A DNA stretch of 64,000 nucleotides from Terebella lapidaria. Lineage: Eukaryota > Annelida > Polychaeta > Terebellida > Terebellidae. Both the position numbers and the translations under genes were made by a program. The notes beneath the pieces were generated by a model. The model was not told the DNA's origin and made no database searches. It worked only from the letters and a program-made list of their open reading frames with translations. The DNA is taken from contig OX424570.1 of the NCBI GenBank assembly GCA_949152475.1, positions 14,876,694-14,940,693 on the forward strand, given 5' to 3'. This document shows, in pieces, positions 6,847 to 64,000 of this stretch (its first letter is position 1; each line of letters opens with the position of its first letter).

Positions 6847-6852
6847 TTTATT
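6847..6852 (-). promoter_or_regulatory. Candidate poly(A) signal of the fibrinogen-domain gene
   Basis: AATAAA on the minus strand lies about 115 bp downstream of the stop codon of the fibrinogen-domain gene, a typical 3' UTR distance. No second signal was looked for exhaustively. Confidence 0.4.
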
Positions 6853-6967
6853 GAACCAATGTGTAGGCTGCACATACCAAGAATATTAGTCTAGGAATTG
6901 AACAAGTCATTAGCCTATATTTCGCATCGTATGCCTCCTTATCTGTCTTTCTTCATCTTTCTGCTGA

Positions 6968-41271: not shown

Positions 41272-41738
41272 CCAGCAGCCGACTCCACAACAGCAGTTAC
41301 AGCAGCGAATTCCACAGCAGCAGGTCCAGCAGCCGACTCCACAACAGCAGGTCCAGCAGCCGACTCCACAACAGCAGGTCCAGCAGCCGACTCCACAACA
41401 ACAGGTCCAGCAGCCGACTCCACAACAGCAGATCCAGCAGCCGACTCCACAACAGCAGGTCCAGCAGCCGACTCCACAACAACAGGTCCAGCAGCCGACT
41501 CCACAACAACAGGTCCAGCAGCCGACTCCACAACAGCAGGTCCAGCAGCCGACTCCACAACAGCAGGTCCAGCAGCCGACTCCACAACAGCAGGTCCAGC
41601 AGCCGACTCCACAACAGCAGGTCCAGCAGCCGACTCCACAACAGCAGGTCCAGCAGCCGACTCCACAACAGCAGGTCCAGCAGCCGACTCCACAACAGCA
41701 GGTCCAGCAGCCGACTCCACAACAGCAGGTCCAGCAGC
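41272..41738 (+). repeat. 27-bp coding minisatellite (Gln/Pro), about 17 copies
   Basis: The unit encodes QVQQPTPQQ and is nearly perfect in all internal copies; variants occur at the left edge (LQQRIP) and a few synonymous CAA/CAG changes elsewhere. It lies in the C-terminal part of the MADF companion gene. Long ORFs in the other frames and on the minus strand here are artefacts of the repeat. Confidence 0.9.
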
Positions 41739-42534: not shown

Positions 42535-43806
42535 CTAGTCCACAGCTCCTGCTGGCGAATTGCAGTAAAGTTTTAGGTATTCCCGTTGACGTTTTGCAGC
42601 AGTGCTGTCCACGTTGCAACCTCGTGCTTGAGCAACGTCGTGCATATTGGCATTTTCTCTCCAGGCACCGAGCACAATGGTGTGATTGTCGTTTTCCCGA
42701 TCCACTACAGCATTCTGCATTGCTGGGAACCGAATGCGCATGAGATTGTGGAGGCAGACACATGCCTCCACAATCAGTCGAGCAGTGTCTGGTTCCTGCT
42801 GCATCGTTCCTAACAGAACTTGCCAGCGCTGGGCAAGAATGCCAAATGCATTTTCGACGACCCTCCTGCCCCTCGATATCCTGTAGTTGTAGATCCTCTG
42901 CTCCTTTGTTAGGTACCTGGCTGCGTAGGGCTTCATCATGTAGGTACGTAGGGCGAATGCGTCGTCAGCTAACAGGAAATATGGCGTGTCCTGATCGTCC
43001 CCAGGAAGTCTGTCTGGTGCTGGCAGGCCGATGGCTCCATTAGCCAGGAGCTCTTTGAGCTCGGAATCGTTATAAATCTGCGCATCAGACATGTGTCCAT
43101 CTCCACCAGTGTCTATCCACAGGAACTTATAGTCCGCGTCCACAAGTCCCATCAAGACCACTGAATAGAAGCCTTTACAATTGTGGAACAGGCTTCCACT
43201 TCTTGGTGGCTTGCGGATTGCGACATGCTTTCCATCCAGAGCCCCACAAGCATGTGGGACATTCCAGCGCTGCTCGAACTTGTCAGCTACAGCTTTCCAT
43301 TCGTCTTGGGTCGTAGGGCACTGGATCACCTCATCTTTATACTCATCAACGATGGCTTGGCAAACTTCTTTCACCAGCATAGAGAGCGTGTTTGCTGGGA
43401 TCCGGAAATCAAACTTCATACTTGCATATGTGTCTCCAGAGGCTAGATGGCGGAGAGTTGCAGCCAGCTTGGTCCCTGGATCCAAGGCCTTCCTGTAATT
43501 CGTGTCCTTCTTTGTGATACGTGGTCCAACCCTGGCAAGTAATTCACCAAACATCTCCGGCTGGATCCTGAGGAAATTCTGTAACGAGGCTTGGCCTTCT
43601 CTTCTGAGCTCGACCATAAGCTGGTTGTAGTGGCCAAGCTGCTCACGTCTCACATTGCCCAGCCAAGGTCTCACCCACCATCTCCTTCGTCTTGCTCGTC
43701 TTCTTCGTCTTCTTTGCAACAGGGCAATCATTGCTTGCTCATCTGCCTGCTGTTGCTGCACCTGCAGCAAGTTTTGCATGACGATCAGATTTCTGTTATC
43801 TGCCAT
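42535..43806 (-). CDS. PIF/Harbinger transposase (DDE_Tnp_4 type)
   Basis: The single exon encodes 423 residues with no break. An Arg-rich N-terminus (RRRRRRARRRRWW, residues 32-44) could be a nuclear signal or bind DNA. A helical region follows (LQNFLRIQPEMFGELL), then the DDE nuclease: D191 in GALDGKHVAI, D281 in LLADDAFAL and E318 in RRVVENAFGILAQRW. The C-terminus has the conserved VEACVCLHNLMR. In this superfamily the enzyme cuts and pastes the element into short TWA-like targets, usually with the MADF/Myb-like partner encoded alongside. All catalytic residues are present, so the enzyme may be active. The start at 43806 is the first ATG downstream of a TATA box and gives the usual length. 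Confidence 0.92.
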   Translation of the reverse strand: MADNRNLIVMQNLLQVQQQQADEQAMIALLQRRRRRRARRRRWWVRPWLGNVRREQLGHYNQLMVELRREGQASLQNFLRIQPEMFGELLARVGPRITKKDTNYRKALDPGTKLAATLRHLASGDTYASMKFDFRIPANTLSMLVKEVCQAIVDEYKDEVIQCPTTQDEWKAVADKFEQRWNVPHACGALDGKHVAIRKPPRSGSLFHNCKGFYSVVLMGLVDADYKFLWIDTGGDGHMSDAQIYNDSELKELLANGAIGLPAPDRLPGDDQDTPYFLLADDAFALRTYMMKPYAARYLTKEQRIYNYRISRGRRVVENAFGILAQRWQVLLGTMQQEPDTARLIVEACVCLHNLMRIRFPAMQNAVVDRENDNHTIVLGAWRENANMHDVAQARGCNVDSTAAKRQREYLKLYCNSPAGAVD

Positions 43807-47013: not shown

Positions 47014-47097
47014 TGTAACAAAACCATGCAACTGCCGCGCTGAAACGTTCGTTAGGAACGGTCACGTGATCTACAAAGTCCACTTGCGAAGACACCG

Positions 47098-47317
47098 TTC
47101 GCGGAAGAACCGTTCGCGGAAGCACGATTGCGGAAGCATCATCAGCGGAAGCATCGTTCGCGGAAGAACCGTTCGCGGAAGCACGATTGCGGAAGCATCG
47201 TCAGCGGAAGCATCAGTCGCGGAAGCACCGTTCGCGGAAGAGGAGCCTTCGCGGAAGAACCGTTCGCGGACGCAGTCTTCACCACGTGGAGAAGAGTGCG
47301 GAAGATACGTTCGCGGA
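47098..47317 (+). promoter_or_regulatory. U3 array of TTCGCGGA motifs (8 exact copies)
   Basis: Eight exact TTCGCGGA copies, usually inside CCGTTCGCGGAAG, plus at least five variants such as ATTGCGGAAG and TCAGCGGAAG, spaced in steps of roughly 15 bp. The array ends about 28 bp before the TATA box. The same array lies in the 3' LTR at 57170-57389. Confidence 0.85.
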
Positions 47318-47344
47318 CGAAGATGCGCGCGCAGCCACCCTGGC

Positions 47345-47351
47345 TATATAA
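47345..47351 (+). promoter_or_regulatory. U3 TATA box
   Basis: CTATATAAGG just downstream of the motif array. The 3' LTR copy is at 57417-57423. Confidence 0.75.
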
Positions 47352-47912
47352 GGGAGAGCGGACGGCCGCTCTGAGAGCACTGCAACAGCGACATCGACCG
47401 TGGGGAGATCGTCACCGCCACAGCCAAGGGACTCGACGAACTCCGTGCGGACGACTCCTTCTTCAGGGCCTTAGAGTCAACCGGGATTTAGACCGACTAC
47501 CTGGAGAAACCATTCGACTAAGCGGGACGGGAAACTTCAACGGGAAGGGACAGAGAGACGCCGCCGGCTAAGAACTCTTTTTAGTTGTGCCCTCGTGCAC
47601 TATTTATTTTTGAAATGTGATCATACAGTGCTCCATGTCTGAACTTCATATTTGTACGTCACGTGGGTGACCAGCCATACAATTGTAAGTTGATTTGATG
47701 TATATAAATCTTCAATTTATTTACATCTGAGTTGCTTCTTGCCTAAGTGAAGCCGGTGAGCTACGGAGTGATGATACACCAGCGTTGGGGGACACCAATT
47801 TAGTGACGGCTCTCGAATCACAACGAGCGGGAGTTACATAAAGTCTATACGATCAGAGAAACCAGGTTTTTTGGGCCACACCGAAAACAAGTCATTACCA
47901 AACGTCACAACT

Positions 47913-47930
47913 TGGTGCACGTGACCAGGA
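47913..47930 (+). promoter_or_regulatory. Candidate primer-binding site
   Basis: TGGTGCACGTGACC starts 3 nt after the 5' LTR, as expected for pairing with a tRNA 3' CCA end. I could not name the tRNA. Confidence 0.55.
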
Positions 47931-47973
47931 TCCCCGAGGGTCTACTGCCAGGGAACGAACCTCAGCATCACTC

Positions 47974-50532
47974 ATGTCCGGCGAAAACGACGAAACTGCC
48001 CCAGGGAAGACAGGAGGTGAAGAGGAAGACTCTTCGCGGACGGCCTCACTTGCGGACGAGGAAGACAGCGGTTCGCGGAAGCCGACCTTTGCGGAAGAGG
48101 GAGACGACCGTTCGCGGAAGACGTTCGCGGAAGACGACCGTTCGCGGAAGACGTTCGCGGACGACAACCGTTCGCGGAAGACGACCTTGGCGGAAGAGGC
48201 CGACGACCGTTCGCGGAAGACAACGTTCGCGGAAGACGACCGTTCGCGGAAGAGCAGCTTCACAGCCAGGGGTAGACGGGACGTTTCGACGAGTGAGGAG
48301 CAACCAGGGAGGTCGAGACCTTCCATGGGCCAGTCGACTAGTCAACAGAGACCCCGGAGCCAGACACCCGACAACCGTTTTCTTTTCAGACACGACTCTG
48401 GGTGGCAGCACGATCGAGACAGGGAGAGGTCAACCTACCTTGAGAGCGTTAGGAGGGGCCCCGAGTTCCGACGAGTGCTGGGACCGGAGTACGTCAATCT
48501 GGACGGGGAGGACGGCGAAATCTGGGCGAGGAGGGATCGGCTACAGCTACCGGAGCAGAGTCCAAGTGTGGCACCTCCAGAGAATGCAGCATTGAGACGG
48601 CTTTGGGACCAGTCCCAGCAGCAGTCTGGTGCAACAGAGCAGCAGTCTGGTGCAACAGGGCAGCGGTCGGGTGTGACGAGTCGACAAACGGGAGTGACTG
48701 GAGGACGGGTTACTTGGGCTCCGACCCAAGAGAGCAGCTCGAGAGGGAGAGGACTTTTCGCGGAAGAGAACATTCGCGGACGAGAGGCATTCTTCGGCGA
48801 CAGGGACGCTTGCAGCCGGGGATCCTTCGTGGATGAACGGGCTCGTGGGCGAGGGGGAGTCTTTGGTGACGAGGACGCTTGTGACCGGGGAGGGCCCTTC
48901 GCGGACGACCACGTTCGCGGACGAGGACGACTCGCGGAAGAGAGTGTTCGCGGAAGAGAGGAGTCTTCACCCAGACGGCGGCTCGACGAAAGGAGTGATC
49001 CAGGCGACCAATCTTCCTTTCCAGTTTTTCAGAATAGACGGGGAAGACCATTCGCGGATGAGCCGGTTCGCGGAAGACTCGCGGAAGATGGCGTTCGCGG
49101 ACGTGCATCTTTTGTGGAGGGACGTCTCCGAGACATCTTGGCGGACGAGCCCGTTCGCGGAAGACTCGCGGAAGACGGCGTTCGCGGAAGAGGCCTGTTC
49201 GCGGAAGAACTTCTTCGGGAGCTGTTGGCGGAAGAGTCCGTTCGCGGAAGGTTCGCGGAAGACAGTGTTCGCGGAGGGTTCGCGGAAGACAGCGTTCGCG
49301 GAAGAGGGAGGTCTTCACCCAGTCGACAACCGAGACAGCCAGCCTCCTGGAGAAATCCAGCTTCTATTTCAGTCACCCAGGGAGGCCGGAGACAGCACCC
49401 TTTCTCATCATCGGGCGATGAGGGGCCTTCATCTGATGGAGGGACCGACAGCAGCCATGGTTACCCAGGACGGGGGAGGAGACCACCGAGGCGGGGACCG
49501 CCGCTGCACCGACGAAGCCCTAGGCCGAGACGGAGGCAGGAGGACTCGTCGTCCGAGGACAGCACAGTCTGGAATCAGAACGGCAGAAGGAACCGGAAGA
49601 TGCTGACCCCTGACAAGTTCGATGGGACTTCCATAGAGTGGCCGGTGTACCGGGCCCACTTTGACGTCATCGCAGAGGTCAACGGATGGAGCAAGCGGGA
49701 ACAGGGCGTCTACTTAGCCGGGAGCTTGACAGGAGAGGCGCGACGAATGCTGACCAGCCTGAGTCCTGCAGACCGGAGGGACATCGACGTTCTGACCGAC
49801 AAGCTGACCCTACGATTCGACCCTGACTGTCAGGAGGAGTCCTACAAGGCGACCTTGGGACAAAGAACCCGCAGGAAGGCAGAGACACCCCAGCAGTACG
49901 GCTATGAGTTGCAGCGACTGGCCGGCCGTGGTTATCCGGATCTGAACTCCGCAGCTCAGGAGGCTATCGCCTTAGACCACTTCTGGAAGGGCCATCCAGA
50001 TGGGGACATGAAGGTGATGGCGCTCATGAGGAAGATGAAGACCATGGAGGAGGCCATAGCGTTCGTGACCCAGTACGAATGTGTCAAACCCAAGCCTGGG
50101 AAGCCGGTAATGTCCATAGAGTCGGAGGACTCCGAGCCAGCTCTAGGACGGGTCCTACAGCTGTTGAAGAACCAGCAGGGAGGCGAGATTACCACCAGTG
50201 GGCAGCAGAGCAACCAGCCGAACGTAGCGGGTCTACCCAGACTTCCCTACTTCAAGGGGCTCTTTGAGAGCCAAGACAGGAAGCTGGATCGACTAATCGA
50301 GCTGTGTGAGCAGGTGCTATCCATCAAGCCGAGGGCCGCCACTGCTGAGAACAAGGGACCAAGCGCTAGGCCGGGACCAGATGACTGTTGGTACTGTGGG
50401 AAGCCGGGTCATCGGAAGTACCAGTGTCCAGATCGGCCGCCACCTCGGACCAAGGAGGAGCGCTTGAGTCGACTAATCGAGGAGATTGGTGAGCGGAACA
50501 GTTTGACAGACGAGGAGTCGGAAAACCAGTAG
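47974..50532 (+). CDS. gag: Gag polyprotein with motif-derived low-complexity N-terminus
   Basis: It encodes 852 residues. Residues 1 to about 530 are low-complexity, rich in Arg, Glu, Asp and Ser. Much of this is built from about 26 copies of TTCGCGGA read as FAE/FAD, VRG or SRK depending on frame. A gag core follows at about 542-700 (TPDKFDGTSIEWPVYRAHFD, LTDKLTLRFDPD, ETPQQYGYELQRLAGRGYPD). Near residue 806 is one CCHC knuckle, CWYCGKPGHRKYQC. It packages RNA in cytoplasmic particles, by family knowledge. It ends in TAG at 50530-50532, and the pol frame (-1) is open from 50493, giving a 40-nt overlap. The first ATG downstream of the primer site was taken as the start. Confidence 0.9.
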   Translation: MSGENDETAPGKTGGEEEDSSRTASLADEEDSGSRKPTFAEEGDDRSRKTFAEDDRSRKTFADDNRSRKTTLAEEADDRSRKTTFAEDDRSRKSSFTARGRRDVSTSEEQPGRSRPSMGQSTSQQRPRSQTPDNRFLFRHDSGWQHDRDRERSTYLESVRRGPEFRRVLGPEYVNLDGEDGEIWARRDRLQLPEQSPSVAPPENAALRRLWDQSQQQSGATEQQSGATGQRSGVTSRQTGVTGGRVTWAPTQESSSRGRGLFAEENIRGREAFFGDRDACSRGSFVDERARGRGGVFGDEDACDRGGPFADDHVRGRGRLAEESVRGREESSPRRRLDERSDPGDQSSFPVFQNRRGRPFADEPVRGRLAEDGVRGRASFVEGRLRDILADEPVRGRLAEDGVRGRGLFAEELLRELLAEESVRGRFAEDSVRGGFAEDSVRGRGRSSPSRQPRQPASWRNPASISVTQGGRRQHPFSSSGDEGPSSDGGTDSSHGYPGRGRRPPRRGPPLHRRSPRPRRRQEDSSSEDSTVWNQNGRRNRKMLTPDKFDGTSIEWPVYRAHFDVIAEVNGWSKREQGVYLAGSLTGEARRMLTSLSPADRRDIDVLTDKLTLRFDPDCQEESYKATLGQRTRRKAETPQQYGYELQRLAGRGYPDLNSAAQEAIALDHFWKGHPDGDMKVMALMRKMKTMEEAIAFVTQYECVKPKPGKPVMSIESEDSEPALGRVLQLLKNQQGGEITTSGQQSNQPNVAGLPRLPYFKGLFESQDRKLDRLIELCEQVLSIKPRAATAENKGPSARPGPDDCWYCGKPGHRKYQCPDRPPPRTKEERLSRLIEEIGERNSLTDEESENQ

Positions 50533-50555
50533 GGCTCATACCAGCCCCCAACCGT

Positions 50556-53500
50556 ATGGGCCATTGGCAGGTGTGTGCACGGCTTCACAGGCGAGAAGCT
50601 CGACGAAGACGTGAAGAACACATTGCCAGGGGGGAATTTTTAGTTTCACAGATTTTTAATAGGTTTTTCCGGTGTGCATCCGAAGTAACTGGATGGGCGC
50701 AGGAGGAGCTCGAGGATCGAATTCTCGACTATTTGGAGGGCAAGCCTGTCAACACAGACGGGAGTGCCAATGTACAGCAAACCGATGGAGCCGTGGAGCG
50801 TCTAATGCCCCGCGGAGACGTCAAGGAAATGCAGACCGATGGAGCCGTGGAGCGTCTAATGACCCGCGGAGACGTCGACGAAATGCAGACCGATGGAGCC
50901 GTGGAGCGTCTGGGGACCCACGGAGACATCAACGAGGTTTCTGCTAGCAGCAAGGAGAACCAACAGGTTACAACCTTGAGGCTGGAGGCTGCGAAACAGC
51001 AGGGACCCCCCTATGCAACTGAACCACAAGCGGCCGTGAAAGAGGAGACGGAGGGCCGGTGGAGCGGAATGACCAAGGGGCCAGCGCAGCAGCTATTGCT
51101 GGTGGACGACTCATTACTTATCCGGAGCGGCGGTTCCGAGGGGAGTGATTCCCTTAAGACTGACAGAGAGGACCAGGGTGGTGCATCACTGTGGGTGGAC
51201 GACTCAGTACTTATCCAGGGCGGCGTCCCTGAGGAGAGTGGCAGCTCTCTTAAGATTGACAGAAATGGCCAGGTGGTGTCGCTGTCAGCCGGTGCCCGAG
51301 GCACATTGGCGTGGTATGCGGCGTGCCACGTTATGGGGAAGGCGACTCGTATGTTGGTGGACACGGGTGCCTCTTCCACCGTTCTGGACGAGTGTCTCTT
51401 CGACCAAATGGATGACGGACATAAAGCAATGATAAGGCAGACGAGAATAAGGTTACGGGCAGCAACCGGAGACTACTTACAGGTTCAAGGAGAGATGACA
51501 GTTCAACTTCTACTGGGCACACGACTCGTGTCGGCAGATGTACTGGTAGCCAAACTAGGGATCCCGGGAGTGTTGGGGCTTGATGTACTTCAACAGATTG
51601 GGGGACAGCTGGATCTGCGTAAGGGCGAGTGGCAGGTGGGCGACACTACCGTAGTGATGAGCGCGGGCCACGAGGACGCCGTCTACACACTGGTGACGGA
51701 GGAGACGGTCGTCTTGCCACCCTTTTCAGAGATGATGGTGGACCTCAAGCTGACAGGAAGTGAGGGAGGAGTTCCGAAGGCCGGCCTCGTGCAGTCCGCA
51801 AGAGAGCCGTTGGAGGACGACCCCCTCGTAGTGGGACGAGCCCTGGTACGACCCCGAGGACGCCTGGTACCGGTGGTACTTCTGAACGCCGGCGCTGGAG
51901 CTTGCACTGTGCTGATGGGGACCATCCTAGCCGAGCTTCACGGAATAGAGGCCGTGATCGACCTGGGATTTCGTCCCGATGGAGGGAAAACAACCCAGAA
52001 TGAACCTAAAAGGGAACAGTGGTACCGGGAGGAGAGCGGGAGGGAGCATGAGCCCCTTACACCAAACTCCACCAAGTGGCGGAACCGGACGCCTGAGCAG
52101 CCCGAAACCAGAGTGCACGCCATGCACGCAGAATCGTCGACGAAGACACCAGAGTGCCCGGAGCATTTAGAACCGCTCCTGGAGGGAATGCATCCGAACT
52201 TGACGGAAAAGGAGGTGGAGGTCGTCAGCGATCTCCTTCGACGCCACCAGCAGGTCTTTATGGGACCAGATGGGAGGTTGGGCCGGACGTCCCTGGCGAA
52301 ACACGTCATCGACACGGGAGATCACCCCCCGATCAAGCAGCCTCTGAGGAGAGCCCCGTACTACCAACAAGAGCTGATCGAGGACGAGGTCGACAAGATG
52401 TTGAAAGCTGACGTTGTGGAGCCAAGTGACAGTCCATGGTCGTCTCCCATCGTGCTAGTGAAAAAGAAGGATGGTGCACTGAGATTTTGCGTCGACTACC
52501 GCCGTCTAAATGATGTCACCCGGAAGGATGCGTACCCCCTGCCTCGAGTCGACGAGAGTTTTGATACCTTGTCAGGAGGACGATATTTTTCGACGCTAGA
52601 CTTGGCTAGTGGTTACTGGCAGGTCGAGATGGACGACAGGGACAAGGAGAAGACGGCGTTCACTACCCGTAGTGGACTCTATCAATTTAAAGTGATGCCG
52701 TTTGGATTGGCGACGGCCCCGGCTACTTTTGAACGTCTAATGGAGCTGGCACTGAGGGGACTCCAATGGAAGCGTTGTCTAATTTATTTGGACGATGTCG
52801 TCTGTCTTGGAAAGACTTTCCAAGAAGCCGTGGACAACCTCGAGGACGTGTTCCGGAGACTGCAGGCTGCCGGGCTGAAGCTGAAACCCGCCAAGTGTGA
52901 GCTGTTTCGACAACAGGTCAACTTCCTGGGCCATGTCGTGTCCGACCGAGGCATCCAGTGCGACCCTGCCAAGGTCGAAGCTGTAACAAAAATGGTTCCT
53001 CCGACCACCTTGACAGAACTAAGGAGCTTCCTTGGGTTCGTGGGGTACTACCGCAGATTCATCCCTGACTTTGCCACCCGAGCGGGACCCCTCAACCACC
53101 TGTTAAAGAAGGAAGTCAACTACCATTGGAGCGAGGCTCATCAGCAGGCGTTCGAGGCGCTGCGTCAACCCCTGACCGAGCACCCCCTGCTGGTGTACCC
53201 TGACATGGACCAAGAATTTATTTTAGATACTGATGCTAGCGGCTACGGAGTGGGAGGCGTCTTATCCCAAGTGCAGGACGGACGAGAGCGGGTGATCGCC
53301 TATGCTTCCAGAACCCTGAGGGACACCCAGCGGAATTACTGCACCACCAAGCGGGAGCTCCTGGCCGTCGTCAGTATGATACACCATTTCAGACATTTCT
53401 TGTGGGGGAGAGCGTTCTTACTACGAACCGACCACGCCTCTCTCAAGTGGCTACTGAACTTTCGGGATGCGGAAGGAATGATCGCTAGATGGGCAGCTCG

Positions 53501-55628
53501 CATCGCCAGCTACGCCTTCAGGTGTGAGGTCCGACCGGGAGTACAACACGGGAATGCAGACGGGATGTCCAGATGCCGACAGTGCCGGAGACCGGATTGT
53601 CCCGCCCCTCGCCACACCACAAGACCCGAAGGAGAAGAGGAGGCCTGTCCGACTCAGGAGGAGTGTCCCCTACCCCTGGAGGACCTCTCTGACGAGGATC
53701 TGCTTCCACCGATCAGCGGAGAAGGATGGAGCCCCGGAGGACCTCAAGTTAACATCTTGCGGGAGGTCCCTGTGGAGCCCTGGACGGAGGACTACTATTG
53801 CGGAGATGGAGTCGGGATATTCCAGATCTGGGAGGTGCGCTGCCAGGAGGACCCGAGGACGACTACCCAGCCGACCGAGGAATGCCTGCCTGACCGGAGC
53901 CCCCCACAGACGGAGGAAGGAGCCAGGAGCGTCTGCAGAACCCTGCATCAGCTCCGCCCCTCTGCCTGGGTTTGGTTTCTCCTGATGATGCTCCTCGCAC
54001 TGCATGGTTTGGGACCGGAGGTTGTGGCCGGAGCAGCGATCGGCGCGACGGCCGACGTGTGGATGCGCTGCCGAGAGGAGCCCTTCCTGGACCCATGCCC
54101 CAACCCTGTGCTCCGAGATCCAGACAAACAAATGCTAGCTGTCACGCGGGCTATGGCTACGGGAGGACGCCGGAATCCGATGGAGGGAGCCCCGGAGGCC
54201 CAGGTCCTGAATGGTTATTCCCAGGAGGACCTAGTGACCCTTCAACGAGCCGACCCTGAAGTTGGAGGCATCCTCGGGTGGAAGAATATTTTCACTGAGA
54301 GACCTGCATGGCCCGAAGTCAGAACAAAAAGTCAGCAAATGAAGACTCTGTGGCAACAGTGGGACCAGCTGGAGCTACGTGATGGGCTTCTGTACCGGCG
54401 GTACCAAGCGGCTTGCCAGAACGCACCAATCCATCAACTGGTCGTTCCACAGGTCCTGAGACGCGCCGTCATGAAGGAGGTCCACACCGGCAAGCTGATG
54501 AGCCACCAGGGAATCACCAAAACAGTCCACCGACTAAAAGCGAGAATGTACTGGCCGGGTATGACGAAGGACGTGGAGCGTTGGTGCCGGGAGTGCCTGA
54601 AGTGTAGTGGGAGAAAGCCGCGACCGGGGCCCAAGTACCACCCCATGGGAAATCTACCGGTAGGCGATCGGCTAGAAAGGGTGGCCATGGACATTTTGGA
54701 GCCTGGAACGATCACCAATTCTGGGAACCGGTATATACTGGTCGTGGGTGATTATTTCACCAAGTGGACTGAGGCCTACGCTCTACCCAACCATGAGGCT
54801 CAGACGGTGGCGGACGTCTTTGTGACTGAGTTCGTGTGCCGCCTGGGAATGCCAGCCAAGATACACACCGACCAGGGACGAGAGTTCGAGAGTAAGCTTT
54901 TCCTTGAGATGATCAAGATCCTAGGAGGGGAGAAGACTCGGACGACCCCTTATCACGCCAAATCAGACGGGATGGTCGAGCGATTCAACCGGACCCTGCT
55001 GAACCTTCTGGCCGTGGTCGTGGACGAGAACCATGACGACTGGGACGACCATCTGCCCTACGTGATGGCGACTTATAGAACATCAGTACACGAAAGCACC
55101 GGGTGTACACCATTTCGAATGATGATGGGACGGGAGGCAACCACCCCATTGGACCTGAGGTACCGGACGAAACCGGACGATTTGGGAGGACCAGTCCCCG
55201 AGTGTGCGTCCGAATACGTCGAATGGGTGAAGGAAGCCACCATACAAGCTCACGAGACTGCCCGAGAGTGCCTGAAGACGGCTACGGTGCGACAAAAGCG
55301 CCATCATGACATAAAATCAGCCGCTCGACATTTTCCGGTGGGCACCTGGGTGATGTATTGGTACCCTCCAAAGGCTAGACCAAAACTAGGACTAGGGTGG
55401 ACGGGACCTTATCTCGTTGTGAAGTCTCATCTCGGATGGATGGTGTCCATACAAGATCGACCCGGTGGCAAGATTAAAGATGTCCACATTGACAATATAA
55501 AAAGGTGCTGGTTCACCCCTGAAACCGACGCCTGGATACCCAATCCGGACGATGTGACCCCAGTCCGGACCCCCAGTGATGACGAGGGACGAGTGGAAAA
55601 CAGCGGGAATGCAGTCCAAACGATGTAA
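50556..55628 (+). CDS. pol: Pol polyprotein: protease, RT, RNase H, integrase
   Basis: It encodes 1690 residues in the -1 frame relative to gag. The protease has LVDTGASSTV (about residue 267). RT has CVDYRRLNDVTRKDAYPLPR and IYLDDVV (about 741). RNase H has LDTDASGYGVGG (about 889). Integrase has the zinc module HTGKLMSHQ...CRECLKCSG (1311-1347), then catalytic D in AMDILEP, D in HTDQGREFE and E in VERFNR, and a GPY-type end (GWTGPYLVV, about 1614). A 180-residue spacer between RNase H and integrase is Pro/Glu-rich and holds a strongly hydrophobic segment (WVWFLLMMLLALHGLG, about 1136-1151). The N-terminal ~200 residues include a triplicated TDGAVERL repeat. Translation is by -1 frameshift in the 40-nt overlap or by reinitiation. 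No canonical slippery heptamer stands out; GGAAAAC at 50520-50526 is a weak candidate. Confidence 0.93.
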   Translation: MGHWQVCARLHRREARRRREEHIARGEFLVSQIFNRFFRCASEVTGWAQEELEDRILDYLEGKPVNTDGSANVQQTDGAVERLMPRGDVKEMQTDGAVERLMTRGDVDEMQTDGAVERLGTHGDINEVSASSKENQQVTTLRLEAAKQQGPPYATEPQAAVKEETEGRWSGMTKGPAQQLLLVDDSLLIRSGGSEGSDSLKTDREDQGGASLWVDDSVLIQGGVPEESGSSLKIDRNGQVVSLSAGARGTLAWYAACHVMGKATRMLVDTGASSTVLDECLFDQMDDGHKAMIRQTRIRLRAATGDYLQVQGEMTVQLLLGTRLVSADVLVAKLGIPGVLGLDVLQQIGGQLDLRKGEWQVGDTTVVMSAGHEDAVYTLVTEETVVLPPFSEMMVDLKLTGSEGGVPKAGLVQSAREPLEDDPLVVGRALVRPRGRLVPVVLLNAGAGACTVLMGTILAELHGIEAVIDLGFRPDGGKTTQNEPKREQWYREESGREHEPLTPNSTKWRNRTPEQPETRVHAMHAESSTKTPECPEHLEPLLEGMHPNLTEKEVEVVSDLLRRHQQVFMGPDGRLGRTSLAKHVIDTGDHPPIKQPLRRAPYYQQELIEDEVDKMLKADVVEPSDSPWSSPIVLVKKKDGALRFCVDYRRLNDVTRKDAYPLPRVDESFDTLSGGRYFSTLDLASGYWQVEMDDRDKEKTAFTTRSGLYQFKVMPFGLATAPATFERLMELALRGLQWKRCLIYLDDVVCLGKTFQEAVDNLEDVFRRLQAAGLKLKPAKCELFRQQVNFLGHVVSDRGIQCDPAKVEAVTKMVPPTTLTELRSFLGFVGYYRRFIPDFATRAGPLNHLLKKEVNYHWSEAHQQAFEALRQPLTEHPLLVYPDMDQEFILDTDASGYGVGGVLSQVQDGRERVIAYASRTLRDTQRNYCTTKRELLAVVSMIHHFRHFLWGRAFLLRTDHASLKWLLNFRDAEGMIARWAARIASYAFRCEVRPGVQHGNADGMSRCRQCRRPDCPAPRHTTRPEGEEEACPTQEECPLPLEDLSDEDLLPPISGEGWSPGGPQVNILREVPVEPWTEDYYCGDGVGIFQIWEVRCQEDPRTTTQPTEECLPDRSPPQTEEGARSVCRTLHQLRPSAWVWFLLMMLLALHGLGPEVVAGAAIGATADVWMRCREEPFLDPCPNPVLRDPDKQMLAVTRAMATGGRRNPMEGAPEAQVLNGYSQEDLVTLQRADPEVGGILGWKNIFTERPAWPEVRTKSQQMKTLWQQWDQLELRDGLLYRRYQAACQNAPIHQLVVPQVLRRAVMKEVHTGKLMSHQGITKTVHRLKARMYWPGMTKDVERWCRECLKCSGRKPRPGPKYHPMGNLPVGDRLERVAMDILEPGTITNSGNRYILVVGDYFTKWTEAYALPNHEAQTVADVFVTEFVCRLGMPAKIHTDQGREFESKLFLEMIKILGGEKTRTTPYHAKSDGMVERFNRTLLNLLAVVVDENHDDWDDHLPYVMATYRTSVHESTGCTPFRMMMGREATTPLDLRYRTKPDDLGGPVPECASEYVEWVKEATIQAHETARECLKTATVRQKRHHDIKSAARHFPVGTWVMYWYPPKARPKLGLGWTGPYLVVKSHLGWMVSIQDRPGGKIKDVHIDNIKRCWFTPETDAWIPNPDDVTPVRTPSDDEGRVENSGNAVQTM

Positions 55629-55643
55629 ACGATGACGGGAGCG

Positions 55644-55755
55644 TTCGCGGAAGAACCGTTCGCGGAAGCAGCGTTCGCGGAAGCAGCGTTCGCGGAAGTA
55701 CCGTTCGCGGAAGCACGTTCGCGGAAGCAGCGTTCGCGGAAGAACCGTTCGCGGA
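55644..55755 (+). promoter_or_regulatory. Internal TTCGCGGA array (8 copies) upstream of ORF3
   Basis: Eight exact copies, all as GTTCGCGGAAG, begin 16 bp after the pol stop codon. The DNA between the copies resembles that in U3 (AACC, CAGC, TACC). No other U3 sequence is shared, so this is not a simple LTR duplication. Confidence 0.85.
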
Positions 55756-55825
55756 AGCAAGCGAAAAACGTTATTTCGTTCCACGACAATGCTTTTTCCC
55801 CCAGATCCCTGGTCCGCGCCTTTTC

Positions 55826-55833
55826 TATATAAG
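55826..55833 (+). promoter_or_regulatory. Internal promoter TATA box for ORF3
   Basis: CTATATAAG lies about 35 bp upstream of the ORF3 ATG (55868) and 70 bp after the motif array. Array, short gap and TATATAAG repeat the order seen in U3. Transcription would start close to the ATG. Confidence 0.65.
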
Positions 55834-55867
55834 CAGGCCGGCCTACGATTCCGTCATCACTTCAACC

Positions 55868-56965
55868 ATGAACACACCAACTCTGCAGATCATTGAGATA
55901 CCCGCATTTGCAGACGAAGATTTCGGGGACGTTCCAGATTTCGACTTGGCTGACTTTCTGCCCCTTGAAGTCGACAAGATGAGCGACCCACCTACCAAGA
56001 TAGACAAGCCTGACCGGAAGCGGGAGCGCTCGAGGAGCCGGGAGCGTCGTGAGGAGCCCCGAGGAGGTCGACGGTCCCCTGCCCGGAAGTTGTCCACCGA
56101 GAGAGGGCGACGCTGGTGCAGCCCCTGCCGGATCCACGTGACGGCATCCAACTTTAGCCGACACGTGGCGACCAAACACACGCAGAAGGAGGGGCGGCAC
56201 CTCTGCAAGATGTGCAGCCAGCGATTCGCCCGCCGAGCTGACAGAGACCGGCATGAGACGTCGCATGCCAGCGGCAACACCCTCAAGCCAGGACGGAGGA
56301 GGACGACGACCGACACGCCCGTGTCCGACCCCCGAGATGGTCCGACTACTGTGTCTGCCCCTGAGCTGAAGACTGTCAGCTTTGCGGCCAGCGGGACGAC
56401 CAGCTCCACGCCGTCAAGCCCCCGGGAGGACGCCCCCAGGTCAGAGGACGCCCCAGACCCCGAGGACGACCCCCCGAATAGCGAAGAGGAACCGGAGTCT
56501 CAGCAGGAGCGGAGAGAGGCGGAATCCCCGGAGGCCCCCACCCCCGAGGACGACGGACCCCCCGTTCCCAGAGACTCGGCCCCTACCTACAAGCCCCTAG
56601 ACCTGAGTTGGTACCTCAAGCCCGTTCCGGAGGAGGAGGACCAACTGCGACCGTATGTGGAGGGCCTGGGCAGAGCGGTCACTGCCGGAGAGAAGGCCCT
56701 GGAGGACCTGGCGTCCACGATAGCCATGGGACGACGCCACCTCACCCAAGCGGAGGCTCGGCTCCAAGCCAAGGAGGAGCAGAGACAGCTCGAGGCCGAG
56801 GTGCTGCAGCTGCGAGGGGAGGCCTCTCAACGAGAGAAGAGCCACCGGAAGGAGCTGCGAGCCCACGTCCGAGAGACCAAGCTGCTCCGGGAACAGCTCC
56901 GAGCATATACAGACACTCGAGACAGGCTGGCGGAGACGTCCGAAAGCGAGGTGGATCGCCAGTGA
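55868..56965 (+). CDS. ORF3: C2H2 zinc-finger, coiled-coil protein with acidic N-terminus
   Basis: It encodes 365 residues. Residues 13-36 (FADEDFGDVPDFDLADFLPL) are acidic and hydrophobic, like a classical activation domain. A basic Arg/Ser stretch (RKRERSRSRERR, about 50-61) may be a nuclear signal. Two C2H2 fingers follow: C84, C87, H99, H104, and the canonical C113, C116, H129, H133. An acidic Pro/Ser-rich linker leads to a long helix with heptad-like character (about 275-350, LEAEVLQLRGEASQREKSHR). It lacks a signal peptide and membrane helix, so it is not an envelope protein despite its place after pol. The layout suggests a dimeric DNA-binding regulator. I infer, without direct evidence, that it acts on the TTCGCGGA arrays. 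I recall no described gypsy ORF like it. Confidence 0.85.
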   Translation: MNTPTLQIIEIPAFADEDFGDVPDFDLADFLPLEVDKMSDPPTKIDKPDRKRERSRSRERREEPRGGRRSPARKLSTERGRRWCSPCRIHVTASNFSRHVATKHTQKEGRHLCKMCSQRFARRADRDRHETSHASGNTLKPGRRRTTTDTPVSDPRDGPTTVSAPELKTVSFAASGTTSSTPSSPREDAPRSEDAPDPEDDPPNSEEEPESQQERREAESPEAPTPEDDGPPVPRDSAPTYKPLDLSWYLKPVPEEEDQLRPYVEGLGRAVTAGEKALEDLASTIAMGRRHLTQAEARLQAKEEQRQLEAEVLQLRGEASQREKSHRKELRAHVRETKLLREQLRAYTDTRDRLAETSESEVDRQ

Positions 56966-57007
56966 AGTGGAGGGAGAGAGCCCTGTAAACATCAGACAGG
57001 CAGGAAA

Positions 57008-57085
57008 AGACGAAGAAGGAGGAAGAAGAGAAAAGAAGAGAGAGAAAGGATCAACGGGGACGTTGATCTCCAGAAAGGGTGGAGT
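57008..57085 (+). promoter_or_regulatory. Polypurine tract region before the 3' LTR
   Basis: A long purine run (GAAGAAGGAGGAAGAAGAG and following, to about 57051) and a short one, CAGAAAGGGTGGAG, directly before the LTR TG. The second is the likely plus-strand primer. Confidence 0.6.
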
Positions 57086-57981
57086 TGTAACAAAACCATG
57101 CAACTGCCGCGCTGAAACGTTCGTTAGGAACGGTCACGTGATCTACAAAGTCCACTTGCGAAGACACCGTTCGCGGAAGAACCGTTCGCGGAAGCACGAT
57201 TGCGGAAGCATCATCAGCGGAAGCATCGTTCGCGGAAGAACCGTTCGCGGAAGCACGATTGCGGAAGCATCGTCAGCGGAAGCATCAGTCGCGGAAGCAC
57301 CGTTCGCGGAAGAGGAGCCTTCGCGGAAGAACCGTTCGCGGACGCAGTCTTCACCACGTGGAGAAGAGTGCGGAAGATACGTTCGCGGACGAAGATGCGC
57401 GCGCAGCCACCCTGGCTATATAAGGGAGAGCGGACGGCCGCTCTGAGAGCACTGCAACAGCGACATCGACCGTGGGGAGATCGTCACCGCCACAGCCAAG
57501 GGACTCGACGAACTCCGTGCGGACGACTCCTTCTTCAGGGCCTTAGAGTCAACCGGGATTTAGACCGACTACCTGGAGAAACCATTCGACTAAGCGGGAC
57601 GGGAAACTTCAACGGGAAGGGACAGAGAGACGCCGCCGGCTAAGAACTCTTTTTAGTTGTGCCCTCGTGCACTATTTATTTTTGAAATGTGATCATACAG
57701 TGCTCCATGTCTGAACTTCATATTTGTACGTCACGTGGGTGACCAGCCATACAATTGTAAGTTGATTTGATGTATATAAATCTTCAATTTATTTACATCT
57801 GAGTTGCTTCTTGCCTAAGTGAAGCCGGTGAGCTACGGAGTGATGATACACCAGCGTTGGGGGACACCAATTTAGTGACGGCTCTCGAATCACAACGAGC
57901 GGGAGTTACATAAAGTCTATACGATCAGAGAAACCAGGTTTTTTGGGCCACACCGAAAACAAGTCATTACCAAACGTCACA
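57086..57981 (+). repeat. 3' LTR of the gypsy element
   Basis: It is 896 bp, the same length as the 5' LTR. I found no differing base in the stretches compared, and the ORFs across both LTRs translate identically. ATTT (57982-57985) follows as the right target copy. Confidence 0.93.
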
Positions 57982-60789: not shown

Positions 60790-61207
60790 TGTAACGGTTT
60801 TGGGGCGTACCCAAACGTTTCCCCTAGGTAATTCTGTTAGTGTTTTGTGATATTATGGTTAAATAACCGTTTATTAAAATGTATATGTGTTTAAAGGTTC
60901 ATACGGTTCCGTATTGTTAATGTTTTAAAGGTTTTCCGTCTCGGAACTTAGTAATTTATGATGTCGGTAAAGCCGGAGACGGAGCCGGAACCGGAGACGG
61001 AACCGGACACGGAGCCGGAACAATGGAGTACAAAAACGTAATGACGTTATTTCCGGAAGGTCATGTGATCAGCCTCGTTTTCGGTTTAAAAGGTGACGTG
61101 TCAGCCACTGATTGGTTCTAGAGTGTTTTTAGAAATCCGGAAAATATCAGTGTTTTGGCGGACTATGACGTCACAATAGGTTGGTCACGTGACGTGGGTC
61201 TCAGGTC

Positions 61208-61215
61208 TATAAAAG
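61208..61215 (+). promoter_or_regulatory. TATA box in the second LTR
   Basis: TATAAAAG follows a GGTCACGTGACGTGGG stretch (CACGTG plus TGACGT sites) and precedes a GC-rich leader. Transcription should start near 61240. Confidence 0.65.
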
Positions 61216-61356
61216 CCCCCGCTTCACAGCGGACGGCGGAGTTGGTGTCCTGACGTCGACCTGTGCAGACCCCTTCTCCCATAGCAGAGTACTCCCTTGT
61301 TCCGGATAGAGTCATCCAGATGATAGCAGTTAAGTCTTCCGACTGTGCACTTGGAA

Positions 61357-61362
61357 AATAAA
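61357..61362 (+). terminator. LTR poly(A) signal
   Basis: AATAAA lies about 145 bp after the TATA box, giving an R region of normal size. Confidence 0.55.
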
Positions 61363-62183
61363 CATGAAAACTTCAACCGAGTTGTTTTTCCGTGTTCGTT
61401 AGGGAACTGGAAGTTATAATAAAGTTAGTTCACCGGAAAAGACAGTAATACGGAGTAAAGGGAGATAAGACTACAGTCGGTTAAGACCAAGTTGTAAAGA
61501 CGTCTTAGGGTGATCTAAGAACCCAGATCACCGAGGAAGGAGACGGAGACGGAGACGGAGGTGGAATTCAACGGAGCAACTACGGAGGCGGTATCGGACG
61601 GAGCAGTTGCAGAGACGGGAACGACGAAGCAGTTGCAGAGGCGGTACCGGACGACGGAGTTGCAGAGGCAGTACCTGACGGAGCGGTTGCGGTAACCGGA
61701 AGTGGGAACACTTCCGAGATACTCCATTTCAGGTGCAGTCGCAGGTTGCGGTGAGGCGGAGCCAACCGGAGCAGATTGCAGTGCGGCGGAACCTGGCAGA
61801 GCGGTTGCAGTATTCGGAAACGGCAACGTTCCCGGATTCTTTATTCCAGGCGCAGTCGCAGTTTGCAGTAAGACGGAAAACGACGGAGCTGTTGCAGTAA
61901 AGCGGTATCCCGACGGAGCAGTTGCAGTACCCGGAGACGGAAACGCCTCCGGATCCTTACTTTACAGGTGCAGTTGCAGATTAGCAGTCGGACAACGGTT
62001 AAGAGGTCCATTCCAGACCACGCTACCAACCTTAGAGACTTCTAGCCGGAGTTTATCCGTACAGCAGTAGCAGTTTTCCGGAGTTTTACCGTTTCAGCTC
62101 CGGTTAAATAACAACTCACCCACCTCCCTAGAAAACCGGTTCATCAAGACGTCACAGAAGGGTGAAAACCCGTTACAACTTTT

Positions 62184-62202
62184 TGGTGGCAGCGGTGGGA
62201 TC
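62184..62202 (+). promoter_or_regulatory. Candidate primer-binding site
   Basis: TGGTGGCAGCGGTGGGATC starts 6 nt after the LTR end. The long match to the TGG-initial form expected of a tRNA 3' complement supports it, but I could not assign the tRNA. Confidence 0.6.
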
Positions 62203-62211
62203 ATCTGCAGT

Positions 62212-64000
62212 ATGACTACTAGACGGGGCAAATTGGCGGAACAGCAGCTGAAAGCAGCCGTGTCGGACACGGAGCAGCCTGTAGGAGCAGTAGGAGCTGA
62301 GCCGTTGCAGGTGCCGGTTGCGGTAAAGGAAGCAGTTCGTCCTGCTGAGAGAAAACTGTTGCAGCCGGAAATGCAGAAAGCAGTTGCAGAAGAGCCCCTT
62401 CGGGTTCCTCAAGGAGTACAGCCTGCAGAGCAGTTAGCAGAGGCGGAAATTAACTTTCCGGACCAGGCTGGCGATCGGGAACCGGATGCGGAACCGGAAG
62501 GCGGAGAGAATTTAGTTGACAACCTGACCAGATTATTGGCGACCCAAATGGAGGTGTTTCAGCAGCACCTGGCAGTAACCGGAAAGCAGCAGCAGGCAGA
62601 AGCAGTACAACAACCCGCACCAAGGGCAGGAGTAGCCAGATTAATGACGTACGACGGAACTGATCCGTGGCCGGAGTATGAGGCTCACCTCCTTGAATAC
62701 GCTCGGTACTACCGTTGGACAGCAGAGGAAAAGGCGCTGAACTTATGTGTCAGTCTGAGGGGTAACGCTCGCAGCATACTACTGGATCTGTCCGCGGAGC
62801 AGAGACGCAGCTTTGATACGGTTGTGGCGGCATTAAAACAGCAGTTTTGTCCGGGAGAGAAAACATTTGTTTTCCAGGCGGAATTGCAGACACGGAAATT
62901 GCAGCCGGAGGAGGAGCTGTCCGAGCTGGCCAGAGACATACGGAGCAAGACGCGGCTAGCTTACCCAAAAGCAGATCCGGCAACAACAGAAGTGCTCATG
63001 AAGATGCATTTCTGCAACAGTCTGACTAACCGAGATATGCGGTTGTCGGTATTGAAAAGCCACCCGGAAACGCTGTCGCAGGCCCTGGCTTTCGCTACCG
63101 AGTATGAGAGTATTATGAAGACGGACAACAGCAGACCAGCGGAGCGACACCGGACGAGGCAGCTGAACACGGAGCCGGAGTGGAGCCAGCAGGTGAACGA
63201 ATTGCGGAAGCAAGCCGAGCAGACTCAGCAGCAGTTGGCGGATCTGATGACTCAGGTCAAGGAAGCGGTTAGCCGGCAGCAGCAGCAGCGCAGTTCCCGA
63301 GCGGATTTAGAATGCTTCAACTGTGGCCGAAAAGGGCATTTTGCCCGAGACTGCAGATTGCCGAGACAACAGCAGCAAAGGCGGCAACCCCAGCAGCAGC
63401 AGCAGCAACAGCGGCAACCACTGCAGCAGCAGCAGAGACAGCAGCAGCAACAGCGGATTGCCCGGATTGTCCGACAGACCCGAAGTAGTGGAATTCCACA
63501 GCCCAAGCCAAGGAAGGGAGGTCGTCGGAGTCAGTTACGGAAACAGCAGCACAGACCAAGAGCAGATCTGGAGTGTTTTAACTGCGGCAGGAGGGGGCAT
63601 TTCGCCCGAGATTGCAGGCTCCCGAGACCACAGCAGCAACGGCGGCAACCACCGCAACAGCAGCAGAGACGGCAGCAGCAACGATGGATTGTCCGGATTG
63701 TCCGGCAGACCCGGAGCAGTGAAACTCCAGAGCCCGAACCAAGGAAGGGGGGACGCCGGAGGCGGTCGCGGAAATCAGCCGGAGAAGCAGAGCTGGCAGA
63801 AGAGGAGTCTCCGGTAAAAGCAGAATCCAAGGCGGTTGCGGTGGCGGAGAAAGCTGTTCCCGGAAGGCCGGTGGCGGTTGCAGGGAAGGCGGATGCGGAG
63901 AAAGCAGTGTCCCGGAAGCCGGTTGCGGTTACGGTGACGGAGAAAGCAGTGTCCCGGAAGCCGGTTGCGGTTGCGGTGACAGAGAAAGCAGTGTCCCGGA
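62212..64000 (+). CDS. gag: Gag of the second retrotransposon, incomplete at the window edge
   Basis: The frame is open for 596 codons from the first ATG after the primer site and runs off the window. The N-terminus is Ala/Glu/Gln-rich. A gag core follows (VARLMTYDGTDPWPEYEAHL, RSILLDLSAEQRRSFDTVVA, LSELARDIRSKTRLAYP, SQALAFATEYESIMK), about residues 143-305. Two nearly identical knuckles, CFNCGRKGHFARDC (about 368) and CFNCGRRGHFARDC (about 455), sit in a 261-bp tandem duplication with Gln-rich spacers and RIVRQTRSS. The C-terminal part becomes a VAV/EKAVSRKP repeat that continues past 64000. The start could lie slightly downstream, but the first ATG fits the spacing. Confidence 0.88.
   Translation, partial: MTTRRGKLAEQQLKAAVSDTEQPVGAVGAEPLQVPVAVKEAVRPAERKLLQPEMQKAVAEEPLRVPQGVQPAEQLAEAEINFPDQAGDREPDAEPEGGENLVDNLTRLLATQMEVFQQHLAVTGKQQQAEAVQQPAPRAGVARLMTYDGTDPWPEYEAHLLEYARYYRWTAEEKALNLCVSLRGNARSILLDLSAEQRRSFDTVVAALKQQFCPGEKTFVFQAELQTRKLQPEEELSELARDIRSKTRLAYPKADPATTEVLMKMHFCNSLTNRDMRLSVLKSHPETLSQALAFATEYESIMKTDNSRPAERHRTRQLNTEPEWSQQVNELRKQAEQTQQQLADLMTQVKEAVSRQQQQRSSRADLECFNCGRKGHFARDCRLPRQQQQRRQPQQQQQQQRQPLQQQQRQQQQQRIARIVRQTRSSGIPQPKPRKGGRRSQLRKQQHRPRADLECFNCGRRGHFARDCRLPRPQQQRRQPPQQQQRRQQQRWIVRIVRQTRSSETPEPEPRKGGRRRRSRKSAGEAELAEEESPVKAESKAVAVAEKAVPGRPVAVAGKADAEKAVSRKPVAVTVTEKAVSRKPVAVAVTEKAVSR
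63301..63830 (+). repeat. 261-bp tandem duplication of the gag zinc-knuckle module
   Basis: GATYTRGARTGYTTYAACTG begins both copies, at about 63305 and 63566. Each unit encodes a knuckle, a Gln-rich spacer, RIVRQTRSS and PRKGGRR. Confidence 0.8.
63835..64000 (+). repeat. GC-rich coding minisatellite at the window edge
   Basis: GAGAAAGCAGTGTCCCGGAA then GCCGGTTGCGGTTACGGTGA repeats with a period of about 54 bp and runs off the window. It encodes VAVTVTEKAVSRKP. Confidence 0.75.

Follow-up and report, generated by a model that had tools for sequence, protein, structure and literature searches.

The 64-kb window analysed here (64,000 nt of the annelid Terebella lapidaria, contig OX424570.1, positions 14,876,694–14,940,693, forward strand) contains an intact Ty3/gypsy retrotransposon of 10,968 bp at positions 47014–57981, whose third open reading frame (ORF), ORF3, encodes a two-finger C2H2 protein predicted to recognise arrays of a short motif within the element itself. 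The two 896-bp long terminal repeats (LTRs) are identical and flanked by a 4-bp target-site duplication (ATTT), and gag, pol and ORF3 are all open. Placement in Ty3/gypsy (Metaviridae) is given by the LTRs, by gag and a pol ordered protease–reverse transcriptase (RT)–RNase H–integrase, and by a protein search, without a tree, in which the window pol lies nearest other gypsy pols. Such homologues are numerous (4,909 of 7,979 scored proteins at E ≤ 1e-50); the best 120 of the 4,909 include proteins of an arachnid, molluscs, frogs, fish and a nematode, and some are named after transposon 17.6 or K02A2.6, which we take to be gypsy-type. The features of the element, all on the + strand, are as follows.

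47014–47909 (+): 5′ LTR, identical to the 3′ LTR; target-site duplication ATTT
47098–47317 (+): U3 array, 8 TTCGCGGA and 14 GCGGA cores, period mostly 15 bp
47345–47352 (+): LTR TATA box, TATATAAG
47974–50532 (+): gag ORF, with a CCHC knuckle match slightly under the Pfam cut-off
48033–49302 (+): in-gag motif copies, 26 TTCGCGGA in all three reading frames
50556–55628 (+): pol ORF, with protease, RT, RNase H and integrase; without TTCGCGGA
55644–55755 (+): internal array, 8 TTCGCGGAAG, 15-bp period
55803–55804 (+): possible splice-acceptor AG behind a run of pyrimidines, an alternative route to ORF3 mRNA
55826–55833 (+): internal TATA box, TATATAAG, 42 nt ahead of the ORF3 ATG
55868–56965 (+): ORF3, 365 aa, proposed self-recognising regulator
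55904–55975 (+): acidic/hydrophobic N-terminal stretch, residues 13–36, possible activation domain
56117–56179 (+): C2H2 finger 1, residues 84–104, C-x2-C-x11-H-x4-H, contacts T/S/N/R
56204–56266 (+): C2H2 finger 2, residues 113–133, contacts R/A/D/R
56636–56959 (+): long C-terminal helix, residues 257–364, likely coiled coil
57086–57981 (+): 3′ LTR, with U3 array at 57170–57389 and TATATAAG at 57417

The host genome (761.6 Mb, 438 contigs) holds many copies. Of 1,707 first-look candidates in a search with ORF3, 112, including the window's own, were scored, each listed as 100% identical to the query along its whole length; the scored set contained no diverged copies. Because all 112 are listed at 100%, the family has, on this measure, burst recently, and with the identical LTRs this indicates that the element is young. 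From eight top copies, which have 1–9 synonymous and 0 non-synonymous differences, we do not claim purifying selection on ORF3, as these copies were ranked by protein identity.

Motif arrays run in one orientation through U3, gag and the internal promoter region

The window contains 51 copies of the motif TTCGCGGA, where 1.15 would be expected, and 0 of 100 shuffles reach this number. Every copy is on the + strand and 50 lie in the element: 8 in each LTR, 26 in gag and 8 in the gap between pol and ORF3, with none in pol or ORF3 and one elsewhere in the window. All eight units of the gap array are perfect. In U3 up to the TATA box, the commonest 5-mer is GCGGA, with 14 copies, 8 of them inside perfect TTCGCGGA. 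Over U3, gap and gag, the base after GCGGA is A at 45, C at 10, T at 1 and G at 1 of 57 sites. The U3 and gap arrays have one identical 29-nt block that includes the spacers, so the two arrays are probably of common origin.

The original prediction, made from this DNA alone, had placed eight TTCGCGGA copies, TATATAAG and an ATG-initiated ORF after a gypsy pol, and counts and coordinates confirm it. Its further statement that U3 repeats this arrangement holds for the order of array and TATA box but not for ‘eight and eight’, given the 14 cores in U3. Nor are the two promoters otherwise unrelated, as it had supposed: their TATA surroundings look unlike by eye, but the 29-nt block is common to their arrays. 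The 26 copies in gag lie outside the segment that it covered and went unmentioned there.

Within gag, the copies are read in frames 0, 1 and 2 in 9, 10 and 7 cases, respectively. The exact motif encodes 10 of 10 [VI]RG peptides (0.07 expected), 7 of 7 SR[KTRSIM] (0.15 expected) and 9 of 10 FA[ED] (1.1 expected), with expectations derived from the codon use of pol and ORF3. Because the motif occurs in three reading frames, we argue that the repetition is at the level of DNA and reject the array as a gag protein repeat.

The ORF3 fingers are predicted to read the array core

ORF3 starts with the acidic/hydrophobic stretch, followed by a basic stretch, the two C2H2 fingers and the long C-terminal helix. 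AlphaFold2, run on the single sequence, predicts beta-beta-alpha folds at residues 81–133 (block predicted local distance difference test (pLDDT) about 59–80) and one helix at 257–364 (pLDDT mostly >90), with little structure elsewhere. The fingers have two ligand sets of the form C-x2-4-C-x11-12-H-x3-5-H, each with the predicted fold. Pfam C2H2 matches fall below the curated cut-offs, and Foldseek with the whole model finds nothing at E ≤ 0.001; among PDB chains, the finger region weakly matches several C2H2 proteins, including Zif268 variants (one of them RADR) and Tramtrack, at E 0.002–0.03 for these. No env family is among the Pfam matches of ORF3, and no hydrophobic span is seen by eye, without a transmembrane predictor; the matches listed for ORF3 in Pfam and the PDB include zinc fingers but no Tas/Bel family. 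The acidic N-terminus, basic stretch and two fingers of the original prediction are thereby borne out by sequence and model; its coiled coil stands as a long predicted helix, and its absence of a membrane segment as a judgement by eye alone. A search with the ORF3 protein returned a single match, an identical protein listed like the window's own. A two-sequence profile matched nothing, not even its own rows, which makes that search insensitive.

C2H2 fingers bind DNA antiparallel. Because finger 2 would read GCG and finger 1 GAN in this orientation, the predicted two-finger site of ORF3 is 5′-GCGGAN, which is the core of the arrays. Finger 2 has the contact residues R-1, A2, D3 and R6 of a solved Zif268 variant, RADR (PDB 1a1i, 1a1j and 1a1k), for which Table 1 of PMC3002361 lists dissociation constants of 0.035 nM on GCGT, 0.068 nM on GCAC and 9.3 nM on GACC. 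Finger 1 has T-1, S2, N3 and R6; helices of the form xxxNLVR are assigned to GAN in the Zinc Finger Tools column of PMC5260015, as are N3/R6 helices in Table 2 of PMC9705829, whose helix columns run opposite to its target columns and were read accordingly. The GCGGAN prediction was formed before families a–c, described below, were read. Sequence-specific self-recognition by ORF3 is well supported, and ORF3 very probably binds its own arrays.

Fingers and arrays change together among related families

A pattern for GW-TGPYLV that excluded the codons of the window family gave 63 sites in the same genome, from several families. Family a was read from L178, L184 and a truncated a-like piece, L185; family b from L176, its downstream L179, the promoter pieces L180–L183, and L186; family c from one copy, L175; and family d, a diverged copy of the window family, from L177. 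Two-finger ORFs with a finger 1 of C-x2-C-x11-H are found in c, b (L176), d and a (L184), with a coiled-coil-like stretch after the fingers of L184 in another frame. A five-sequence BLASTP comparison links a, b, c, window ORF3 and P0011, a protein from another record, at E 4e-6 to 0.02, though not in all pairs. Twenty 10-kb tiles placed at round positions of contigs C1–C5, one of them half masked, contain no array, with only weak pol matches (26–44% identity) in 3 of 20. A second gypsy element, which starts in the window and continues on L136, was also compared. Finger residues are given below as positions −1/2/3/6, with F1 and F2 for fingers 1 and 2.

Window element: F1 T/S/N/R, F2 R/A/D/R; GCGGA 23 against 2.8 expected in U3 plus gap, rank 2 of 512 merged 5-mers, with the other GCGGN at 0–1
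Family a: F1 L/K/N/R, F2 R/G/D/R; GCGGA 47 against 8.3 expected (L184, rank 2) and 29 against 2.3 (L178, rank 1); array sequence TGCGGAGG (GCGGAG arrays)
Family b: F1 T/S/H/R, F2 R/D/L/K; GCGGG 20 against 5.4 expected in L179, rank 2; array sequence GCGGGCGA (GCGGGC/GGGCGA arrays)
Second gypsy, protein B (L136): F1 S/H/T/R, F2 R/E/G/K; GCGGT 19 against 5.2 expected, rank 8
Family c: F1 Q/R/S/R, F2 R/G/D/V; no clear array in the 2.7 kb read (one copy)

Four cases have an enriched GCGGN, and in these the residue at position 3 of finger 1 (N, N, H, T) tracks base 5 (A, A, G, T). Position 3 threonine in a finger goes with base T, as in the second gypsy, where finger 1 spacing is x12 rather than x11. 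In family a, the remaining GCGGN occur 4–11 times against 6.7–8.1 expected; its array unit is TGCGGAGGT, which the + strand of L184 carries mostly as ACCTCCGCA (16 versus 2). The finger 1 helix is TASNFSR in the window element and TASHLSR in family b; the designed helix nearest the latter, TSGHLVR, is listed for GGT in the table of PMC9705829. Family b has the same order of array, TATA box and ORF as the window element, with another motif: GGGCGA occurs five times in four of five promoter pieces and four times in the fifth, at most 90 nt before TATATATGG, and a candidate ATG lies 35 nt after the start of this box. More GGGCGA copies lie 3′ of the family b zinc-finger ORF (L179 865–1310, beyond TATAAAAG at 221). 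Separately, the pol tail of family a in L178 (1–534) closes with the hydrophobic segment WLPWLLGLGGILALSYV, which may anchor the C-terminus of Pol in a membrane.

The second gypsy (window 60800–64000 plus L136 1–8400, G000:C17:14940600–14950500) has duplicated integrase pieces and two post-integrase C2H2 ORFs, A (L136:4523–5188) and B (5491–7341), each with TATAAAAG. On the + strand of L136, TATAAAAG occurs only at 4271, 5406 and 8032, that is, before ORF A, before ORF B and in the LTR; in two gypsy lineages of one genome, C2H2 ORFs that follow pol are thus preceded by TATA boxes. GCAGT, GCGGT and GACGGA show a strong strand bias in the non-coding parts of the second gypsy, and a run of 28 A between its zinc-finger ORFs (L136 5285–5312) looks as if a polyadenylated message had been copied in.

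The expectation that finger residues and arrays would change together in relatives is thus upheld in the window element, families a and b and the second gypsy, but not in family c. On balance, we lean towards a gypsy clade with private ‘self codes’, in which the post-pol two-finger protein of each family would match its own promoter array, and in which switches at finger 1 position 3 (N to H to T) would go with array switches (GCGGA to GCGGG to GCGGT), separating the regulation of the families from each other and from the host.

Relatives outside this genome

P0011, a pol homologue, is one predicted protein of 2,469 aa with the order of the window element: pol, a repeat peptide, two C2H2 fingers and a helical-looking or coiled region. 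Its post-integrase repeat, known as protein sequence only, has 14 AE dipeptides (GCNGAR), and 10 of 13 intervals are 7 residues (21 nt). Between its fingers and those of ORF3, in an alignment with gaps partly placed by hand, 6 of 8 contacts are identical, as against 2 of the 34 non-ligand positions outside the contacts (Fisher p = 1.4e-4). A two-sequence BLASTP comparison of the whole P0011 tail with ORF3 gives E = 2e-5.

At the protein level, tandem tails after integrase are found in 4 of 21 pol homologues showing GW.GP[YF]L[VI], which is suggestive. In the close homologues P0006, P0008 and P0009, the C-terminus of pol carries short tandem peptides, whose periods are 12, 5 and 12 residues, respectively, hinting at arrays there as well. 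Searches of viral contigs with ORF3, pol, A2, P0011 or P0008 as query found no relative, and array-pattern searches of these contigs gave 4 and at least 120 stretches. Among the 127 loci collected, only L005–L007 (metagenome-assembled genome contigs, integrase alignment) match the window pol.

A constant TATA box precedes ORF3

Both strands of the window together have three TATATAAG, one per LTR (47345 and 57417) and one at 55826. Of 20,000 leaders of 60 nt simulated with an order-1 model of the element, none contained it, and a fraction of 0.0001 had a TATAWAWR. All 27 copies examined have the box at −42; they are the window copy and 26 others of the 112 matches (8 best-ranked, 15 with unusual upstream open-frame length and 3 usual), a sample tilted towards unusual arrays. 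Against this constant TATA box, array length varies, mostly by whole 15-bp units, with 9 perfect units in 1 copy, 8 in 12, 7 in 11, 6 in 2 and 5 in 1. At the level of sequence, this is a TATA-type promoter inside the element before an accessory ORF, as in foamy viruses, from which an ORF3 transcript would start near 55855.

Proposed mechanism and its alternatives

From what the DNA displays directly (architecture, arrays, TATA boxes, contact residues, copy variation and finger–array agreement in the families read), we infer binding, dimerisation, activation and a start site in the following scheme. The two ORF3 fingers would read 5′-GCGGAN within the TTCGCGGAAG units of U3, gag and the internal promoter; the C-terminal helix would pair protomers, favouring dense arrays; and the acidic N-terminus would recruit the transcription machinery. 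In this way ORF3 would make both the LTR, the source of genomic RNA, and the TATA promoter of its own gene more active, closing a positive loop similar to that of Tas and the internal promoter in foamy viruses. Families of this clade would own finger/array pairs whose two members change together. Given binding, activation is the likeliest output in view of the proximity of arrays to TATA boxes and of the acidic N-termini (residues 13–36 in the window, MSDDIIDLFPEGDDELLMEADD in family b and EDDLTKMLMDDVHGLTDDDD in family a, with a putative function in each). Taken as a whole, the statement that ORF3 is a self-binding activator of the LTR and internal promoters is, in our judgement, likely. The autoregulator of the original prediction gains from contact residues that predict the array core, from finger/array covariation and from the TATA box in 27 of 27 copies, and loses from family c, the open upstream frames and the P0011 fusion.

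Several observations weigh against this proposal. Many C2H2 fingers have arginine at position 6, and through tandem duplication the motif copies depend on one another. T-1 of finger 1 suggests that base 6 should be T (a table of designed helices gives TSGNLVR for GAT), where the sites have A in 45 of 57 cases and T in 1 of 57; in family b, too, the T-1 finger faces C instead of T. Two fingers do not account for the full length of the conserved unit (TTC.....AAG). The family comparison has one or a few pieces per family, and the GCGGN comparison was chosen once the families had been read. No zinc-finger ORF is found in L178 or L185, of the family a kind, or in L186 of family b, where an inserted LINE-like ORF takes its place. 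The family b promoter has NNGGGCGA, with GCGGG not enriched there (count 1, rank 366 of 512), and another in-frame ATG overlaps its TATA box. The second gypsy has stronger CCGGA, GCAGT and GACGGA, and GCGGA is also raised (11 against 5.4). Family c keeps its two-finger ORF without a clear array (GCGGT rank 116), which touches the outcome that the original prediction had itself named as counting against it; its top non-coding 6-mer, CCGGTT (5 copies, a small count), is compatible with NCGGTN. The ORF3 frame is open for 95 codons 5′ of its ATG, across the array into the end of pol, the zinc-finger frame of family b is also open through its array, and in P0011 a single predicted protein spans pol, repeat peptide and fingers.

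The open frames and the P0011 protein bear on how ORF3 is made. It could come from splicing out of the LTR leader or from a Pol–ORF3 fusion, for example by frameshifting, with TATATAAG incidental and array binding still possible. ORF3s of LTR elements are described in PMC5408684 as typically expressed from spliced messages, and the window element offers a donor-like GTAAGT in its LTR (47685) and, at 55803–55804, a CAG with a run of pyrimidines. This acceptor is mediocre, with 11 of 14 pyrimidines by manual count, and fails a 12-of-14 screen; moreover, TATATAAG is confined in the window to the LTRs and the internal site and is kept in all copies examined, and the family b ORF and both zinc-finger ORFs of the second gypsy have TATA boxes of their own. 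We regard this route as possible but doubtful; it is compatible with the other explanations, and the probabilities therefore do not sum to one.

The main rival to activation concerns its output: as with VANC, ORF3 would coat the arrays in U3, gag and the internal region and remove or block repressive marks, the arrays marking self rather than serving as classical enhancers. The motifs of VANC21 have one orientation and high density and evolve by tandem repeats (PMC5735166, in part), and here all 50 element copies are on one strand, perfect units number 5–9 across 27 insertions, the motif has spread into gag, and each TTCGCGGA has two CpGs (CpG observed/expected 1.33 in the LTR and 1.78 in the gap versus 0.83 in pol). 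The same source describes VANC motifs as mainly non-coding, whereas the arrays in gag are part of a coding sequence. Also against this rival, the window element and family b have arrays close to TATA boxes, and ORF3 has an acidic N-terminus and C2H2 fingers; we rate anti-silencing as unlikely. That a host factor of the ETS, STAT or E2F type binds the arrays, with ORF3 acting otherwise, for example on RNA or particles, is highly improbable. The motif does resemble CGGAAG and TTCN3GAA, presumably the ETS and STAT cores, with CGGAAG found 46 times and TTCNNNGAA 32 times in U3, gap and gag. Such binding would leave unexplained why the array core follows finger residues among a, b and the window element and why the finger contacts are the residues conserved with P0011; [CA]CGGAAG, which we take to be the ETS-preferred form, occurs once, the E2F form once and heat-shock elements not at all. 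Scarcely probable, finally, is a repeat that acts in RNA, where Gag or ORF3 would read it to package or condense the genomic RNA, or that is a functionless slippage expansion. Its single orientation across the window element, its presence in genomic RNA within gag, gap and 3′ U3 and its variation by 15-bp units would suit this, but not the match of family a and b arrays to their own fingers, the mostly opposite orientation of the family a array, the proximity of arrays to TATA boxes or the exact core in three gag reading frames.

If the proposed self-activation is correct, retrotransposons outside the complex retroviruses self-regulate through zinc-finger transcription factors that they encode, and the finger code lets the target be read from the protein. 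The system would then be a counterpart of VANC among retroelements and a possible source of C2H2 genes and arrays for host co-option. Several families in one genome would form a natural replicated test of protein–DNA co-evolution, and in so young an element expression should be measurable.

Other features of the window

No Rfam family or tRNA was found in the window. A 968-aa ORF at 22817–25723 (−) has a Schlafen AlbA_2 match and weaker NTPase matches. A 27-nt repeat, present in about 17 copies at 41272–41738 and coding in one frame for a Q/P-rich stretch, lies near a DDE_Tnp_4 transposase ORF (42535–43806).

Comparison with known systems

Literature searches found no gypsy post-pol C2H2 protein with matching arrays; they left subscription papers and bioRxiv mostly uncovered, so that absence is unproven. 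Element-encoded regulators of their own sequences are already known, in foamy virus Tas and VANC, and what appears unusual here is co-evolution apparently replicated within one genome.

The foamy virus Tas (Bel1) is a retroelement transactivator that acts on the LTR and an internal promoter (PMC8670036 and PMC4929722). The window element, known from sequence, resembles it in having a TATA promoter for an accessory ORF inside the element. It differs in that its protein is of C2H2 type with arrays of one short motif as targets, and in that it is a Ty3/gypsy element with no recognised env and a proposed activation. Because scans of ORF3 list no Tas/Bel family, we say that the system may work like, not that it is, a Tas system.

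In the VANDAL DNA transposons of Arabidopsis, the element-encoded VANC protein and its motif co-evolve by tandem repeats (PMC5735166). Dense same-orientation arrays and a protein predicted to bind them are likewise found here, but in an LTR retrotransposon, with C2H2 fingers, and with arrays near TATA boxes and inside gag. LTR retrotransposons of bdelloids also carry additional post-pol ORFs, many of them non-envelope and family-specific; the types named in PMC5408684 are env, GDSL, DEDDy, coiled-coil or membrane proteins, and ‘zinc finger’, ‘DNA-binding’ and ‘transcription factor’ have 0 occurrences in its main text. Sireviruses are LTR retrotransposons with conserved motifs in non-coding regions, but they are plant Ty1/copia elements, and the passages of PMC2829016 concerned mention no matching element-encoded binding protein.

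The fingers themselves are closest to Zif268 variants: finger 2 has the contacts of RADR, finger 1 (TSNR) is close to DSNR, and the DNA-binding domain of Tramtrack is also among the PDB sequence matches. From both, ORF3 differs in the C-x2-C-x11-H spacing of finger 1 and in a sequence similarity that is weak.

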